Shown in pieces: positions 41,127 through 45,325 of a DNA stretch of 64,000 nt (position 1 is the first letter of the stretch; the number at the start of each line of letters is the position of its first letter). The notes beneath the pieces were generated by a model, which was given only the letters and a program-made list of their open reading frames with translations, ran no database searches and was not told the DNA's origin. The position numbers and the translations under genes were made by a program. This DNA comes from Alteromonadales bacterium alter-6D02 (GTDB lineage: Bacteria; Pseudomonadota; Gammaproteobacteria; Enterobacterales; Psychrobiaceae): NCBI GenBank assembly GCA_002835545.1, contig PIZK01000038.1, positions 1 to 64,000 on the forward strand. The letters run 5' to 3'.

Positions 41127-41147
41127 GCGGCTACTTGATATAGTCAA

Positions 41148-41172
41148 AAAGGGCGCTAAACAGCGCCCTTTG
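41148..41172 (+). terminator. Terminator of murJ, shared with the converging TraB gene
   Basis: AAAGGGCGCT and AGCGCCCTTT form a perfect stem around AAAC between convergent genes, extended by TAGTCA / TGACTA on the outside. Confidence 0.88.
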
Positions 41173-41199
41173 TGACTAGTGAATCACCCAATACTGTTA

Positions 41200-42081
41200 T
41201 TATAGTTGAGTTACGGTATAGCCTTTATCTTTTAATAGAGTCAAGACACTGTCCTTTCCTGCCAAATGGCCTGCACCGACAAGGACTAGTTCTTTATCTG
41301 CATCTTGTAGCATTGTTTCGATCTTAGGGATCCAATTGTGATTACGGTCGGTGAAAAGTGCTTTGTAGTGTTTAGGCTCTTGCTCCATTGCATCTTTGAG
41401 GATGACTTCATTTATTGCACCCATGTTTCCGGCGCGCCAAGCAACAAATAATTTTTCCATCGTTGGCTTGAATGCAACCATTTCTTTTAAACTTTGTTTT
41501 AAAAACTTGTCTTCGAAGCCTTGGCCCATATTCGCTAACATATTAAGTTGAAACTCTGTTGTTTCAAGGTAATCGATCGGCTTGTTATCTTGTTTTGCTA
41601 ACTTATCAAAGTAAGCATCAACTCCTTCACCAGCAAGTTGCTCCTTTTGAGCTGCCATGACCGTCATCATACTTATGATAAAGCCAGGCTTGAAGCCGTT
41701 CAATTCATCGAGATTGACGCCAAACTCGGTGAGGTAATTTGCTAGTTCTTTATATGTTGATGGACTGATAACTTGGTCTAATTTCTTTCCTGTTGGGTAG
41801 GCAAGCTTTTGAATCATTGCCATCTGCGCCTCTCGGTCTGATGGGTCAGGCAATTTTGCTTCTAATACGATTGAATCTGCTTGCTGATAAGCTTGTCCAA
41901 ACTCTTCCGGTAACGGAAATTGAGATGAAGGCAAAATATGGACTGTTCCGGCGACGAATAATTCATGTTGGTTATTACTGACTTTCCATACTGATGTTTG
42001 AGCCTGGACGTTTGTACCTATAACACTTGATAATAAAACGGCTACAGCTGAGATTGATTTCATTAATTTAGTTGGTTTCAT
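41200..42081 (-). CDS. TraB/GumN family secreted protein
   Basis: A 293-residue protein with a signal peptide (ends NVQAQ). FVAGTVHILPSSQFPLPEEF near the start and LVLVGAGHLAGKDSVLTLL near the end are the paired GxxH motifs of the TraB/GumN (Tiki-like) family, whose eukaryotic Tiki members are metalloproteases. YLETTEFQLNMLANMG also fits. It is the last gene of a three-gene leftward unit with two small secreted proteins. A periplasmic peptidase role is plausible but unproven. GumN-type genes can accompany exopolysaccharide loci. Confidence 0.87.
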   Translation of the reverse strand: MKPTKLMKSISAVAVLLSSVIGTNVQAQTSVWKVSNNQHELFVAGTVHILPSSQFPLPEEFGQAYQQADSIVLEAKLPDPSDREAQMAMIQKLAYPTGKKLDQVISPSTYKELANYLTEFGVNLDELNGFKPGFIISMMTVMAAQKEQLAGEGVDAYFDKLAKQDNKPIDYLETTEFQLNMLANMGQGFEDKFLKQSLKEMVAFKPTMEKLFVAWRAGNMGAINEVILKDAMEQEPKHYKALFTDRNHNWIPKIETMLQDADKELVLVGAGHLAGKDSVLTLLKDKGYTVTQL

Positions 42082-42129
42082 AATATTTTCTCTTAAAATT
42101 TTTTAACGGCTATCGGTGATACGATGAGA

Positions 42130-42444
42130 TTACAGTTCAATCATTTGAACTAGTTGCTGTTCAATTTTCGTCGACATTAATACATTCGCTGTTTGCAATT
42201 GCTGATTGATGCGGTGGTCAATGATTGCGGTTAAACTATGTTGTAATTCATGTTGGCTACTCAAAGCTGCAATCTTGGCTTGTGGGGCTGCAAATGCTGC
42301 GCTAGACAAAGCCGCAATCTTGGCTTGTGGAGCTGCAAATGCTTCGCTAGATAAAGCTGAGATCTTGGCTTGTGGAACTGCAAACGCTACGCTAGAACAT
42401 GCTAATAAAAATGCTGTTGCTGAGATTGATTGAACTAGTTTCAT
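42130..42444 (-). CDS. Small secreted protein with internal 15-residue repeats
   Basis: 104 residues with a signal peptide. After it come three units of the pattern FAxPQAKIxALSSxA, each resembling the signal-peptidase site AFAVPQAKI. The C-terminal 40 residues (LTAIIDHRINQQLQTANVLM, then STKIEQQLVQMIEL) form an amphipathic helix closely similar to the next gene's C-terminus, so the two are paralogs. No family is recognised. GAGGATATAAGCA before the ATG is a good ribosome site. It lies between its paralog and the TraB gene, all on the same strand. Confidence 0.7.
   Translation of the reverse strand: MKLVQSISATAFLLACSSVAFAVPQAKISALSSEAFAAPQAKIAALSSAAFAAPQAKIAALSSQHELQHSLTAIIDHRINQQLQTANVLMSTKIEQQLVQMIEL
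42266..42400. repeat. Three tandem 45-bp repeats inside the small secreted protein gene
   Basis: Units at 42266-42310, 42311-42355 and 42356-42400, each containing ATCTTGGCTTGTGG and CTGCAAA. The period is in frame (15 codons). Units 1 and 2 are the most alike and unit 3 (at the signal peptide junction) the most diverged, suggesting the array grew by copying the cleavage-site region. Confidence 0.9.
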
Positions 42445-42497
42445 TGCTTATATCCTCTTGGTCGCTTGTCGATATTCGTTAAGTATTGTGCTGCTTG

Positions 42498-42728
42498 TTA
42501 AAGTTCAATTTGACGAGCTAAACGTTGCTCAATTTTTTCACTCATCAATTTGTTGGCTGTATTTAGCTGTTGATTGATTTGATGTTCTATCGTTGTTGTC
42601 AGGTTAATTTGCAGCTTATGTTGATTATTAAATAGCACTGACTCGACTATTGGCGCGGCAAGTGCTGATGATGAAGATGCTAATAGTAATGATGCGATAG
42701 CGATTGTATGTGTGATTGATTTTTTCAT
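42498..42728 (-). CDS. Small secreted helical protein, paralog of the neighbouring gene
   Basis: 76 residues: signal peptide (ends SSALAA), short linker, then LTTTIEHQINQQLNTANKLM and SEKIEQRLARQIEL. It aligns along the last 35 residues with the 42130-42444 protein, including INQQLxTANxLMSxKIEQxL and the ending IEL. It lacks the 15-residue repeats. AAGGGAAATAAA precedes the ATG. It is the first gene of the leftward unit, facing the regulator gene. No family is recognised; secretion is inferred from the signal peptide. Confidence 0.7.
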   Translation of the reverse strand: MKKSITHTIAIASLLLASSSSALAAPIVESVLFNNQHKLQINLTTTIEHQINQQLNTANKLMSEKIEQRLARQIEL

Positions 42729-43063
42729 TTTATTTCCCTTAAACTAATCGGTTTAGCATTTGTATTTTATGGAGTAAGCAGCGTTGTTGTTGCTGCGTCT
42801 CAGTTGATGACGATAAGATTAGAGGGAAATTTTGACGAAGTCGCTTACGAAACGCTGAGGTATTAATTTGTAAGCTTTTATCTTTCTTAGCTTATGATTT
42901 TAAAGGTTATTTTGTGGTTGTTATGAAACCTTATGAAAACCTTATATCAATTGTTATATTTGATAAGGTTTCCCCTTAAGTATTTAATTACTAAGAGTTA
43001 TGTTTTATTTTTCTGGCTGTTGTGGTATTTTTGACCTCGATTTGTCGATGAAAAGGAAAAGTC
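42729..43063. other. Divergent control region of the TraB cassette
   Basis: 335 bp between the small secreted protein gene (left) and the regulator gene (right). It contains the AAACCTTAT repeat cluster at 42926-42971, annotated separately. No small gene was found. AAAGGAAAAG precedes the GTG start of the regulator. Confidence 0.5.
42926..42971. promoter_or_regulatory. AAACCTTAT repeat cluster, probable operator
   Basis: AAACCTTAT occurs at 42926-42934 and 42937-42945, exactly 11 bases apart (one helical turn), and inverted as ATAAGGTTT at 42963-42971. This is about 95 bases before the regulator gene and about 200 before the small protein gene. Such phased repeats suit a winged-helix regulator of the ToxR/OmpR fold. 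Binding is inferred. Confidence 0.55.
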
Positions 43064-45325
43064 GTGAACTTTAGTTTTGGGCCATGGGTGTTAATATCAC
43101 AACGTTGTTTACTTACTTCTCCGGAAGTAGAAAAGGAGCTCGACCCATTAAGTTTTAAATTATTATGCTTTTTCATTGATAACCAAGGCAGAATTATTCC
43201 TAGGCAAGAGTTAGTCGAAAAGGTTTGGCAGCAATCCTTTGTCGATGATAACGCGATTAACCGTGCCATCTCTGAACTAAGGAAACAGCTTAGTCACCCT
43301 CAATTTAAATCACATATTATTAAGACACATTACCGCAAAGGTTACAGTCTTACGGTAGAGGTAAGTCAAAGCGAACAAAAACTTTCGACTGAATTTGGGG
43401 CAACTAGTTCGAACTCAGAAATGAGCGAAGATGGACAAGAACAACTTGTCGAAAGCCTTAAGCTTGCTGAAGCAGAGAAAAAACATACGGAAAATGAATT
43501 ACAACTAAATGCGAGCGGTCTCAATACCACTAATCATGCGAGCTCAACTACTCCTGAACTGAGTGTCGAGGAGGTATCGGTTAAATCGAAGGTCGCTTTG
43601 CATCGTTGGGTCATTGTGGCTTTAATTTTCGTAGTGATTATATTAGCAATTAAGCCCTTTTGGGCAGAGAACGATGGTGAGTTTAAAGTTTCTGAGAAAC
43701 CTCTACCCACAATCCCGCTAGCCGCTAAACCAGTTGAACGCGATTTTTCTGTCACATCGGCGACTTGGAACCATGGCGGAGAAGGGAATCCTTTAGTTTC
43801 TTACGATCGGGAGTTTTTTGCCTATAGTAATACTTATCAAGGGGTGGTTAAGACTTTTGTGAAGCGATTGAGTGATCAGGCCGAAGTCGCTCTAAGTGTA
43901 CCGGGATTAGAAGTTGGAGGAATATCTTGGCAATTAGGTCAGCAAAAGCTATTAACTTTATTGGTTAATAAGGACCGGAGTAGCTGTGATTATGTGCTAT
44001 TTGATATGTCGACCTTTCCTGATATTCAACCTCCTAAAACGATAAAGTCGTGTCAGGCATTAACGTATGGCTATGCTCATTTAGATGAGAAAGCAGAAAA
44101 CCTCTATTATACTCGCGTCGATACTGGTTTTTCTGGTTCTGCCATCTATCAATATAATCTAAAAAGGGAACGTGAGAATGTGCTGTTAGCACCAAGTGAA
44201 AATCACTATGGGGCAATGCAGGTACAGTTATCACCTGATGGTAAATATTTAGCTTATTTGTGGTCTCAAGTTAAGTCTTCACAGCGAGTGTATTTAATAA
44301 ACCTAGAAACGCGTGAAAACCGTTTATTGCATGAAATGCCTTTGGCTAGACCGCATTACTCGCTTAATTGGTTTGATGATGGTAAACACTTACTAACTGC
44401 TGAGGGTGATCAGTTAGTGAAGCTAAATATTGATACAAAAGTCATTGAAAAAATTAAGTTACCGCAGGGGCTAATACCATTCTACATGGCCATTGAGTAC
44501 GATAATCAGATATTGTTATCGCAAAGGGATACTCAAAAATATCAATTAATACGGGGAAGTAAGCTCTTTAGCCATTCGGATATCACATTTACTAATGCTC
44601 ATGAATCAGAAAGTAGTGATTATTATCCTGCTACATCTAAAAGTAACGAAGAATTACATTATTTCATTTCTAAGAGAACGGGAAGTAGTCAAGTTTGGCG
44701 CAGCGAAAAAGGCCAACTAACGCAAATTACTACGGTTAAAAATAGTGTCATACAGCCAATCAGTGGCTTAAGGTTATCCTCTGATAATGAGAGGTTGATT
44801 TTTATACAAGGCGGCGACCCTTACCTTATTGATTTAAATGCTAACCAAGAGTATGCAATTGATGAATTAGATGAATTTGAAATTATTGATATCGCCTGGG
44901 GGAATGCTCCACACCTTATTTATTTTATTAATGTTGTCGGCGACAATAAACAATTACAGCTTTTTAATTTAATGACTCGGCAAATAACTTTAGTTAATAA
45001 TGATGGTGCTGAGCGTCTTTATTCGAACGGGGCTGGGGACACTTTTTATTTATTCGACAATAACCTTCATAATATCGGTACTGGTAGCACAATAGCGATT
45101 ACCATTCCAAGTGATGCCTTTGTTTTTTCAGATATGAATGAGCATTACTTTTTTGGTAGTGATGCGCTATCAACACTTTATCGGATGTCTTTGAGTAATG
45201 GGGAAGTTCAAAAGGTAAAAACGCCATTTAGACAGCACCGCTTTAGCATCATTGACGACAACTCTATTCTTTTCACCAAAAGGCAATTTAAAAATACCTC
45301 AATTAAGCGTGTCTCTTGGAATTAA
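43064..45325 (+). CDS. ToxR/CadC-like membrane transcription regulator with TolB/propeller-like C-terminus
   Basis: A 753-residue protein. Residues 1-105 are an OmpR-type winged helix (ELDPLSFKLLCFFIDNQGRI, DDNAINRAISELRKQL, HYRKGYSLTVEV). A low-complexity linker follows, then one membrane helix (about 181-200, VIVALIFVVIILAI). The remaining 550 residues form beta-rich repeats such as MQVQLSPDGKYLAYLW and LNWFDDGKHLLTAEGDQL, typical of TolB-like or WD-like propellers, facing the periplasm. It is a one-component sensor without phosphorylation. The start is GTG, with AAAAGGAAAAG upstream. It is divergent from the TraB operon, its likely target. Confidence 0.85.
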   Translation: MNFSFGPWVLISQRCLLTSPEVEKELDPLSFKLLCFFIDNQGRIIPRQELVEKVWQQSFVDDNAINRAISELRKQLSHPQFKSHIIKTHYRKGYSLTVEVSQSEQKLSTEFGATSSNSEMSEDGQEQLVESLKLAEAEKKHTENELQLNASGLNTTNHASSTTPELSVEEVSVKSKVALHRWVIVALIFVVIILAIKPFWAENDGEFKVSEKPLPTIPLAAKPVERDFSVTSATWNHGGEGNPLVSYDREFFAYSNTYQGVVKTFVKRLSDQAEVALSVPGLEVGGISWQLGQQKLLTLLVNKDRSSCDYVLFDMSTFPDIQPPKTIKSCQALTYGYAHLDEKAENLYYTRVDTGFSGSAIYQYNLKRERENVLLAPSENHYGAMQVQLSPDGKYLAYLWSQVKSSQRVYLINLETRENRLLHEMPLARPHYSLNWFDDGKHLLTAEGDQLVKLNIDTKVIEKIKLPQGLIPFYMAIEYDNQILLSQRDTQKYQLIRGSKLFSHSDITFTNAHESESSDYYPATSKSNEELHYFISKRTGSSQVWRSEKGQLTQITTVKNSVIQPISGLRLSSDNERLIFIQGGDPYLIDLNANQEYAIDELDEFEIIDIAWGNAPHLIYFINVVGDNKQLQLFNLMTRQITLVNNDGAERLYSNGAGDTFYLFDNNLHNIGTGSTIAITIPSDAFVFSDMNEHYFFGSDALSTLYRMSLSNGEVQKVKTPFRQHRFSIIDDNSILFTKRQFKNTSIKRVSWN

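Follow-up and report, generated by a model that had tools for sequence, protein, structure and literature searches.

In the CpxRA-CpxP/DegP and sigma-E/DegS circuits an envelope sensor sets the levels of secreted proteases, and the Cpx system includes a small helical periplasmic feedback protein. Proteins of the TraB/PrgY/GumN (Tiki) family, PF01963, are widespread, and to our knowledge few of the bacterial members have known substrates. Enterococcal PrgY acts in plasmid pheromone control (PMC7117660). The window, i.e. the whole 64,000-nucleotide stretch analysed (contig PIZK01000038.1 of Alteromonadales bacterium alter-6D02), contains between murJ and ribF a cassette of four genes, encoding a TraB protein, two small exported proteins and, divergently, a ToxR-like membrane regulator. 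We propose that this is probably a one-component envelope sensor dedicated to a self-contained operon for a secreted metallopeptidase. Comparison with relatives established the gene order, the coding status of the small proteins, a conserved promoter element, the tracking of the small protein with the regulator and the exchange of the peptidase.

The regulator is like ToxR/CadC-type proteins in its N-terminal OmpR/PhoB winged helix, its single transmembrane (TM) segment, its periplasmic sensor and its divergent promoter with short repeats, but differs from them by the large, propeller-like sensor and by its target, an operon that pairs a secreted metallopeptidase with a small exported protein. 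TraB shares with PF01963 a full-length match and the invariant GTxH, Glu, Arg and His, and differs in being exported and encoded beside a dedicated membrane sensor. Compared to the Cpx and sigma-E circuits, one protein would replace the two-component or sigma/anti-sigma machinery, the peptidases belong to other families, and control would be local to the operon. ToxR-ToxS is reported also to link a membrane winged-helix regulator to a small partner protein (PMC7496328); the small protein of the module differs in being exported, divergent and co-transcribable with the peptidase, and the parallel is a tentative one. No paper listed in searches of the open-access literature describes the module in its title or opening abstract. 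The ToxR-like regulator and TraB are known kinds of protein; those searches turned up neither their combination nor the promoter element or the type of small protein.

All four genes were confirmed in the window as open reading frames (ORFs). On the reverse strand, small exported protein A (42498-42728, 76 amino acids, aa) leads the operon, followed by small exported protein B (42130-42444, 104 aa) and TraB (41200-42081, 293 aa). The regulator gene (43064-45325, 753 aa, GTG start) lies on the forward strand. The gaps of 53 and 48 nucleotides (nt) inside the leftward group, together with purine-rich stretches ahead of the starts, fit a single operon, and its three products have signal-peptide-like N-termini by a simple hydropathy score (2.14 for protein A). 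The winged helix of the regulator (about residues 1-100) is of OmpR/PhoB type (Trans_reg_C, PF00486, 62.8 bits against a cut-off of 26.2), and its best sequence match in the Protein Data Bank (PDB) is the DNA-binding domain of CadC. A linker precedes the one TM peak, at residues 177-201, where all the highest hydropathy windows are found. Beyond it (about 230-753), the AlphaFold2 model is all-beta and propeller-like, with a mean pLDDT of 72 and a pTM of 0.48, and Foldseek matched it to tandem or double propellers and to the tricorn protease, at low TM-scores of about 0.2-0.3. We infer that this C-terminal half is periplasmic. The original prediction, made from the window alone, had placed these genes where we found them, with three exported products facing a membrane regulator, and had given the regulator a large periplasmic beta domain; the genes and signal peptides agree with it, and the all-beta model does so with moderate confidence.

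TraB matched PF01963 with 247.4 bits (cut-off 26.8) over profile positions 2-263 of 263. Residues G45, T46, H48, E74, E152, E173, R246 and H272 were invariant across 13 homologues, and we take the GTxH, Glu and C-terminal His to be the family's putative metal-site or catalytic residues. On sequence, TraB is a putative TraB/PrgY/GumN (Tiki-like) metallopeptidase. The best solved match of its AlphaFold2 model (mean pLDDT 89) was a Tetrahymena complex IV subunit (VIA Z 11.2); ChaN (Z 6.0) and RRSP (Z 4.7) were both within the range of common arrangements. A PDB sequence search with the TraB profile gave no credible relative (best E 0.11).

The intergenic regions of the module share a box 1, ATAAGGTTT, followed by a box 2, TAAGCGAC. 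Box 1 is often in tandem with an 11-bp period, and an inverted upstream copy exists in several groups. In the window, a tandem box 1, ATAAGGTTTTCATAAGGTTT, is an operator candidate matched without mismatch at 42926-42945 on the reverse strand, and a third, inverted copy, ATAAGGTTT, lies on the forward strand at 42963-42971, inside the inverted repeat I2 (42925-42972) of the region between regulator and operon; this copy is conserved in the congeners G006 and G007 (G, C and L numbers are our handles for genomes, contigs and loci). The promoter candidate, box 2 in the pattern TAAGCGAC-N17-YTAATCTT, is at 42815-42847 on the reverse strand, with 17 bp between GCGACT and TAATCT, and is the sole match without mismatch to this pattern in the window genome. 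Across 27 regions (three second promoters and 24 divergent regions, close relatives among the latter), box 1 was exact in 25, and box 2 was present with at most one mismatch in all 27 and exact in 21. Shuffles of single regions equalled box 1 in 0-4 cases per 100, apart from the two regions that lack an exact copy, where 23 and 29 did so; for box 2 the figures were 0-2 per 100 when it was exact and 6-11 when it had one mismatch. YTAATCTT follows box 2 at a promoter-like 17 nt in the window, G006, G007, G487, G514, G549 and the TraB operon of G408; at the same position the G320 group has GTAATCTT, the Rheinheimera group a CTAGATTG-like sequence and the group with M16 peptidases a TAAAATAG-like one.

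Whole-genome searches were consistent with a local role. In 12 genomes, 6 exact copies of the tandem box 1 and 3 with one mismatch were found, all of them at these operons; a further 13 matches with two mismatches bring the total to 22 (8 for the reversed control). The exact promoter pattern, searched in 20 genomes, gave at least 7 matches among the matches listed, which do not show G006 to G008, and these were again always at the operons. Such confinement is as expected of a local regulator. A dispersed regulon in the window genome was considered and rejected, as no 0- or 1-mismatch match to the promoter pattern lies outside the cassette. With two mismatches the pattern gave 12 matches there against 2 for the reversed control, 11 of them outside the cassette, and at this stringency it is unspecific in many genomes (9 versus 7 in G002). 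Five 1-mismatch matches lie outside cassettes in G490, G002 and G003. Box 2 alone, with at most one mismatch, gave 16 matches in the window genome against 7 for the reversed control, and a generic sigma-70 scan did no better than shuffles (12 vs 12.5).

The module recurs well beyond the window. Our sample of its own family consists of 9 genomes from one genus, four of which have the regulator orthologue (the window genome, G001, G006 and G007; 47-49% identical). G006 and G007 carry the same cassette between RibF- and MurJ-like ORFs, identified by eye, TraB being preceded by a single small protein of 79 or 80 aa, and no cassette-free locus was found in a congener among the contigs spanning the locus, which are those of G006 and G007. 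The G001 contig ends upstream of the regulator yet keeps an exact promoter match. A scan of named genomes with a TraB alignment yielded 12 loci, eight of which have a divergent regulator and a small exported ORF before TraB: L060, whose DNA is nearly that of G007 (51/53 sampled 60-mers), and seven from Rheinheimera, Arsukibacterium and Alishewanella. In the other four (L065, L068, L069 and L070), TraB came without regulator, recognised small protein or element. On the far side of TraB, all seven Rheinheimera, Arsukibacterium and Alishewanella genomes have a GlmU-like gene, and in three of the seven an AtpC-like gene adjoins the regulator (Pfam-checked on L063 only), so that the module site in these genera differs from murJ-ribF. 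R. pacifica (L068) has TraB alone between AtpC- and GlmU-like genes. In G526 (L209, 1084-2373), TraB precedes a GlmU-like gene and neither regulator nor small protein is present, while a neighbouring hydrophobic-start ORF encodes a protein of 117 aa with weak similarity to that of the Arsukibacterium gene located beyond the regulator; this locus is possibly a remnant left after loss of both regulator and small protein.

Larger surveys scored the best 2 regulator candidates per genome among 394 genomes of the order, and the best 5 among 196 genomes of the family of G320. In the first, seven genomes matched at E≤1e-50 (G000, G001, G006, G007, G320, G003 and G095); the matches in G003, of the same genus, and in G095 were discarded as paralogues with no TraB, M13 or M16 gene adjoining. 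In the second, 20 genomes had the regulator at E≤1e-80 (23 matches), and 15 of these have it directly facing a small protein and TraB: G320, G406, G420, G438, G464, G474, G475, G489, G490, G514, G516, G527, G544, G549 and G551. Three of them, G475, G489 and G544, share their DNA with the named L061, L062 and L071 (26/26 sampled 60-mers each), which leaves 12 in addition to the seven named genomes; G406 and G438 are near-copies at the module locus (52/65 60-mers). The three extra matches are paralogues in G544 and G475, with no TraB, M13 or M16 adjoining, and a fragment in G516, and the regulator locus of G534 is a contig fragment. At every locus examined in which regulator and TraB adjoin on a spanning contig, the space between the two holds a small exported ORF, placed upstream of TraB. 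We concluded that the cassette exists, that its small proteins are encoded by genuine genes, and that it is a recurrent module whose murJ-ribF position is local.

TraB is far more common than the module, with a match at E≤1e-70 in 106 of the 196 genomes, and the best-scoring 30 of these TraB loci were compared for small protein and element. In genomes with the regulator, 12 loci out of 12 had a small exported ORF and the upstream element (box 1 being degenerate in G408); in genomes without it, both were present at 1 locus out of 18, that of G038 (Fisher p 1.5e-7, relatedness not corrected for). Eight of the other 17 loci hold one or more short hydrophobic-start ORFs, set aside for lack of an upstream element and for being, by eye, unlike the type, and G193 has a lone TAAGTGAC without small protein. 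Genera g38, g79, g88 and g105 hold both states within the 30 loci, with matching throughout, as does g137 if G514 and G549 are set against G472. Within the genus of the window, the seven other TraB copies, including a second one of the window genome (contig C44, 40% identical), had no control element in their 900 upstream bases, in 7 cases out of 7, and no recognised small exported gene; three hydrophobic-start ORFs were disregarded there as they overlap larger ORFs. Across the genomes compared, the small protein follows the regulator and the promoter element, not TraB.

The peptidase, in turn, varies. Pfam identified genes of two other peptidase families, M13 and M16, at the same regulator. 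In G487 the regulator faces a small protein and an M13 gene, and past its 3′ end are a small protein and an M16 gene with a second copy of the promoter. In G550 and G408 the regulator faces an M16 gene, and a small protein with TraB lies about 5 kb off with its own copy of the element. In G541 the regulator faces M16 and no small protein was recognised; a hydrophobic ORF of 66 aa at this locus, which contains box 2, was disregarded. The element is thus found in front of small protein and M13, small protein and M16 (box 2 only), M16 alone, and small protein and TraB, and judging from these gene arrangements TraB is exchangeable for M13 or M16 under the same regulator and element. In the regulator tree, M13 and M16 carriers branch among TraB carriers, within a 13-row set (support 98/96); support is lower at the finer forks (86/87, 82/83), and the branch of G487 is long. 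The paralogues of G544 and G475 cluster with Rheinheimera-type TraB carriers (support 100/99). At the G487 locus (L101, 3928-6012 and 9137-12001), where the regulator gene sits between the M13 and M16 genes, each small protein has an exact TAAGCGAC-N17-YTAATCTT.

The proposal of a new envelope system thus holds for a conserved module of sensor, small protein and TraB that we did not find described, and fails where it made TraB the fixed partner, as M13 and M16 substitute for it and it is common without the small protein. It had also turned on how often the parts occur apart: TraB is often without small protein or regulator (106/196 against 20/196 genomes), whereas a small protein without an adjacent regulator-type operon was seen once only, in G038, among the loci examined.

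The small proteins themselves have kept position, size and signal peptide in relatives, and little sequence. Proteins A and B are homologous (53-55% identical; 0/300 shuffles as good), and B is a local, diverged duplicate of A, with proportions of nonsynonymous (pN) and synonymous (pS) differences of 0.30 and 0.74; relatives carry one small protein, and the twin genes are not the module feature they had been taken for. In all 13 small-protein pairs pN was below pS, for example 0.10 vs 0.32 for L062/L064 and 0.14 vs 0.40 for L110/L111, the weakest pair being L102/L106 (0.38 vs 0.64), with several pS values close to saturation. By this comparison the small proteins are under purifying selection and are genuinely coding. 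Of the 105 pairs among 15 mature sequences, 43 had an ungapped similarity that at most 3% of shuffles equalled, about 3 being expected; these 43 include close relatives and partly inconsistent registers. Window protein A was matched by 0/300 shuffles when paired with L063 or L110, and by 1/300 with L062. In a global alignment of 11 small proteins, the start Met was the sole invariant column and no short peptide core was conserved across genera. With so little alignable sequence, what speaks for one family is chiefly the shared position, size, signal peptide and promoter element.

As predicted, A and B, related to each other, had no match above cut-off in Pfam or NCBIfam, and a PDB search with the 11-row profile gave no relative (best E 0.9). 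The motif INQQLxTANxLMSxKIEQ, by which the module was to be traced in other genomes, is not widespread: a single-sequence search gave a match in 1 of the 9 family genomes, the window genome itself, and a profile search of the 394 genomes gave strong matches only there and in two congeners. Six more genomes matched weakly (E 0.001-0.01; G179, G319, G393, G104, G321 and G379), and a weak match to the window genome itself was found on C1. The best of the weak matches, in G179, is an ORF that overlaps a large upstream ORF and lacks a signal peptide, and was judged to be chance; those in G319 and G393 have stops within. The small-protein type is one largely missed by homology search and revealed by synteny and promoter element.

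The small protein probably acts either as a feedback ligand or as a partner. We tentatively regard a periplasmic feedback ligand or sentinel as its likeliest role, and favour it because the small protein follows the regulator and the promoter element rather than the peptidase. A narrower version, which we hold to be rather doubtful, is self-metering: the small protein would be the system's own sentinel substrate, the double-propeller sensor would read its intact or cleaved form, and the promoter would report peptidase load, whichever exchangeable peptidase is present. An equally tentative alternative to the feedback role is that of a dedicated peptidase partner, such as a trans-acting propeptide, chaperone, inhibitor or adaptor, the regulator merely setting the dose. 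The small gene is immediately upstream of the peptidase gene, co-transcription is possible, and many periplasmic chaperones and inhibitors are presumably also small and exported; but 17 of the 18 best TraB loci without regulator lack the small protein, L068 and G526 have TraB before the GlmU-like gene with neither small protein nor regulator, and small proteins precede three unrelated peptidase families, in G487 and elsewhere. The comparison of best loci, L068 and G526 weaken a TraB-specific partner as the principal explanation.

It is unlikely that the module serves autocrine signalling, TraB cutting a pro-peptide whose product the regulator senses on the same or neighbouring cells. Such a role would suit the fast divergence of the small protein next to constant promoter boxes, and in enterococci TraB/PrgY limits a peptide pheromone (PMC7117660); the lack of a conserved peptide core across genera and the existence of M13 and M16 versions speak against it. 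It would moreover be a special case of the feedback role, and action between cells is without support. Still less likely is a membrane-active or toxic small protein detoxified by TraB. The protein is exported, and some members show an amphipathic tendency by helical moment, a mixed result on segments chosen by eye; in several members the moment does not stand out from shuffles, the two window proteins among them (equalled by 171 and 1030 of 2000 shuffles), and the same type of protein accompanies three peptidase families. Finally, that a ToxR-like regulator and TraB are chance neighbours with spurious small ORFs between them, which the window by itself could not exclude, is very improbable, given that synteny holds at two or more chromosomal sites, that selection is purifying and that the promoter boxes are conserved.

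In the proposed circuit, the periplasmic propeller domain of the inner-membrane regulator would read an envelope signal, and its winged helix would bind the ATAAGGTTT boxes, perhaps also TAAGCGAC at -35, in the divergent promoter region. The regulator would thereby set, presumably by activation, transcription of the small exported protein and then of TraB, or of M13 or M16 in relatives. TraB may then cut peptides or proteins in the periplasm, and the small protein, made with the peptidase and read by the regulator intact or cut, would allow the circuit to measure peptidase load. DNA binding, activation, peptidase activity and the signal are here deduced from the kinds of protein and element involved. 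If the feedback role is true, the module would tune envelope proteolysis with a single protein, as an alternative to the sigma-E and Cpx circuits. The sensor, promoter element and co-encoded small exported protein together offer a handle on what TraB acts on.

Several observations weigh against this proposal. G038 (L235) has a small protein and TraB with a box-1-like ATAAGGTTT element, and no regulator on 8 kb, an alpha/beta-hydrolase gene taking its place; the regulator may be elsewhere or lost. The small proteins of G487 were assigned by position, size and signal peptide, with weak sequence support, and the M16 operons adjoining the regulator in G541, G550 and G408 have no recognised small protein, which means that it is not needed at every target. 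The propeller-like periplasmic domain is modelled with moderate confidence. Regarding the element, the regions that served to define the boxes also served to count them, so that the shuffle and count figures favour the boxes. The tandem box 1 pattern, at two mismatches, misses the cassettes of G551, G514, G490 and G487 (4 of the 12 searched), and box 2 alone is not specific (4 matches vs 8 for the reversed control in G514, 5 vs 7 in G551).

In the window, the cassette is flanked by MurJ (PF03023; ORF end 41126) and RibF (PF06574 and PF01687; ORF start 45411). Between the convergent murJ and TraB genes lies an inverted repeat, I1 (41141-41178, 17-nt arms, 94% complementary), likely a two-way terminator. 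Protein B contains three tandem copies of an AFAxPQAKIxALSS-like unit (repeat D1, 42253-42396, reverse strand, 45-bp spacing), which duplicate an AFA/P site of signal-peptidase type together with the beginning of the mature chain, so that cleavage might occur at several places. In G550, an extra 55-aa hydrophobic ORF (L115, 1169-1336, reverse strand) lies between the small exported protein and TraB. Contig C21 of the window genome (L121, 2060-11761) carries a distant regulator paralogue facing a TonB-dependent receptor gene, then two S9 peptidase genes, and an S9 or M16 peptidase gene is found near the module in several relatives. A theme of peptide use or proteolysis therefore recurs, and suggests that the wider regulator family serves peptide use.

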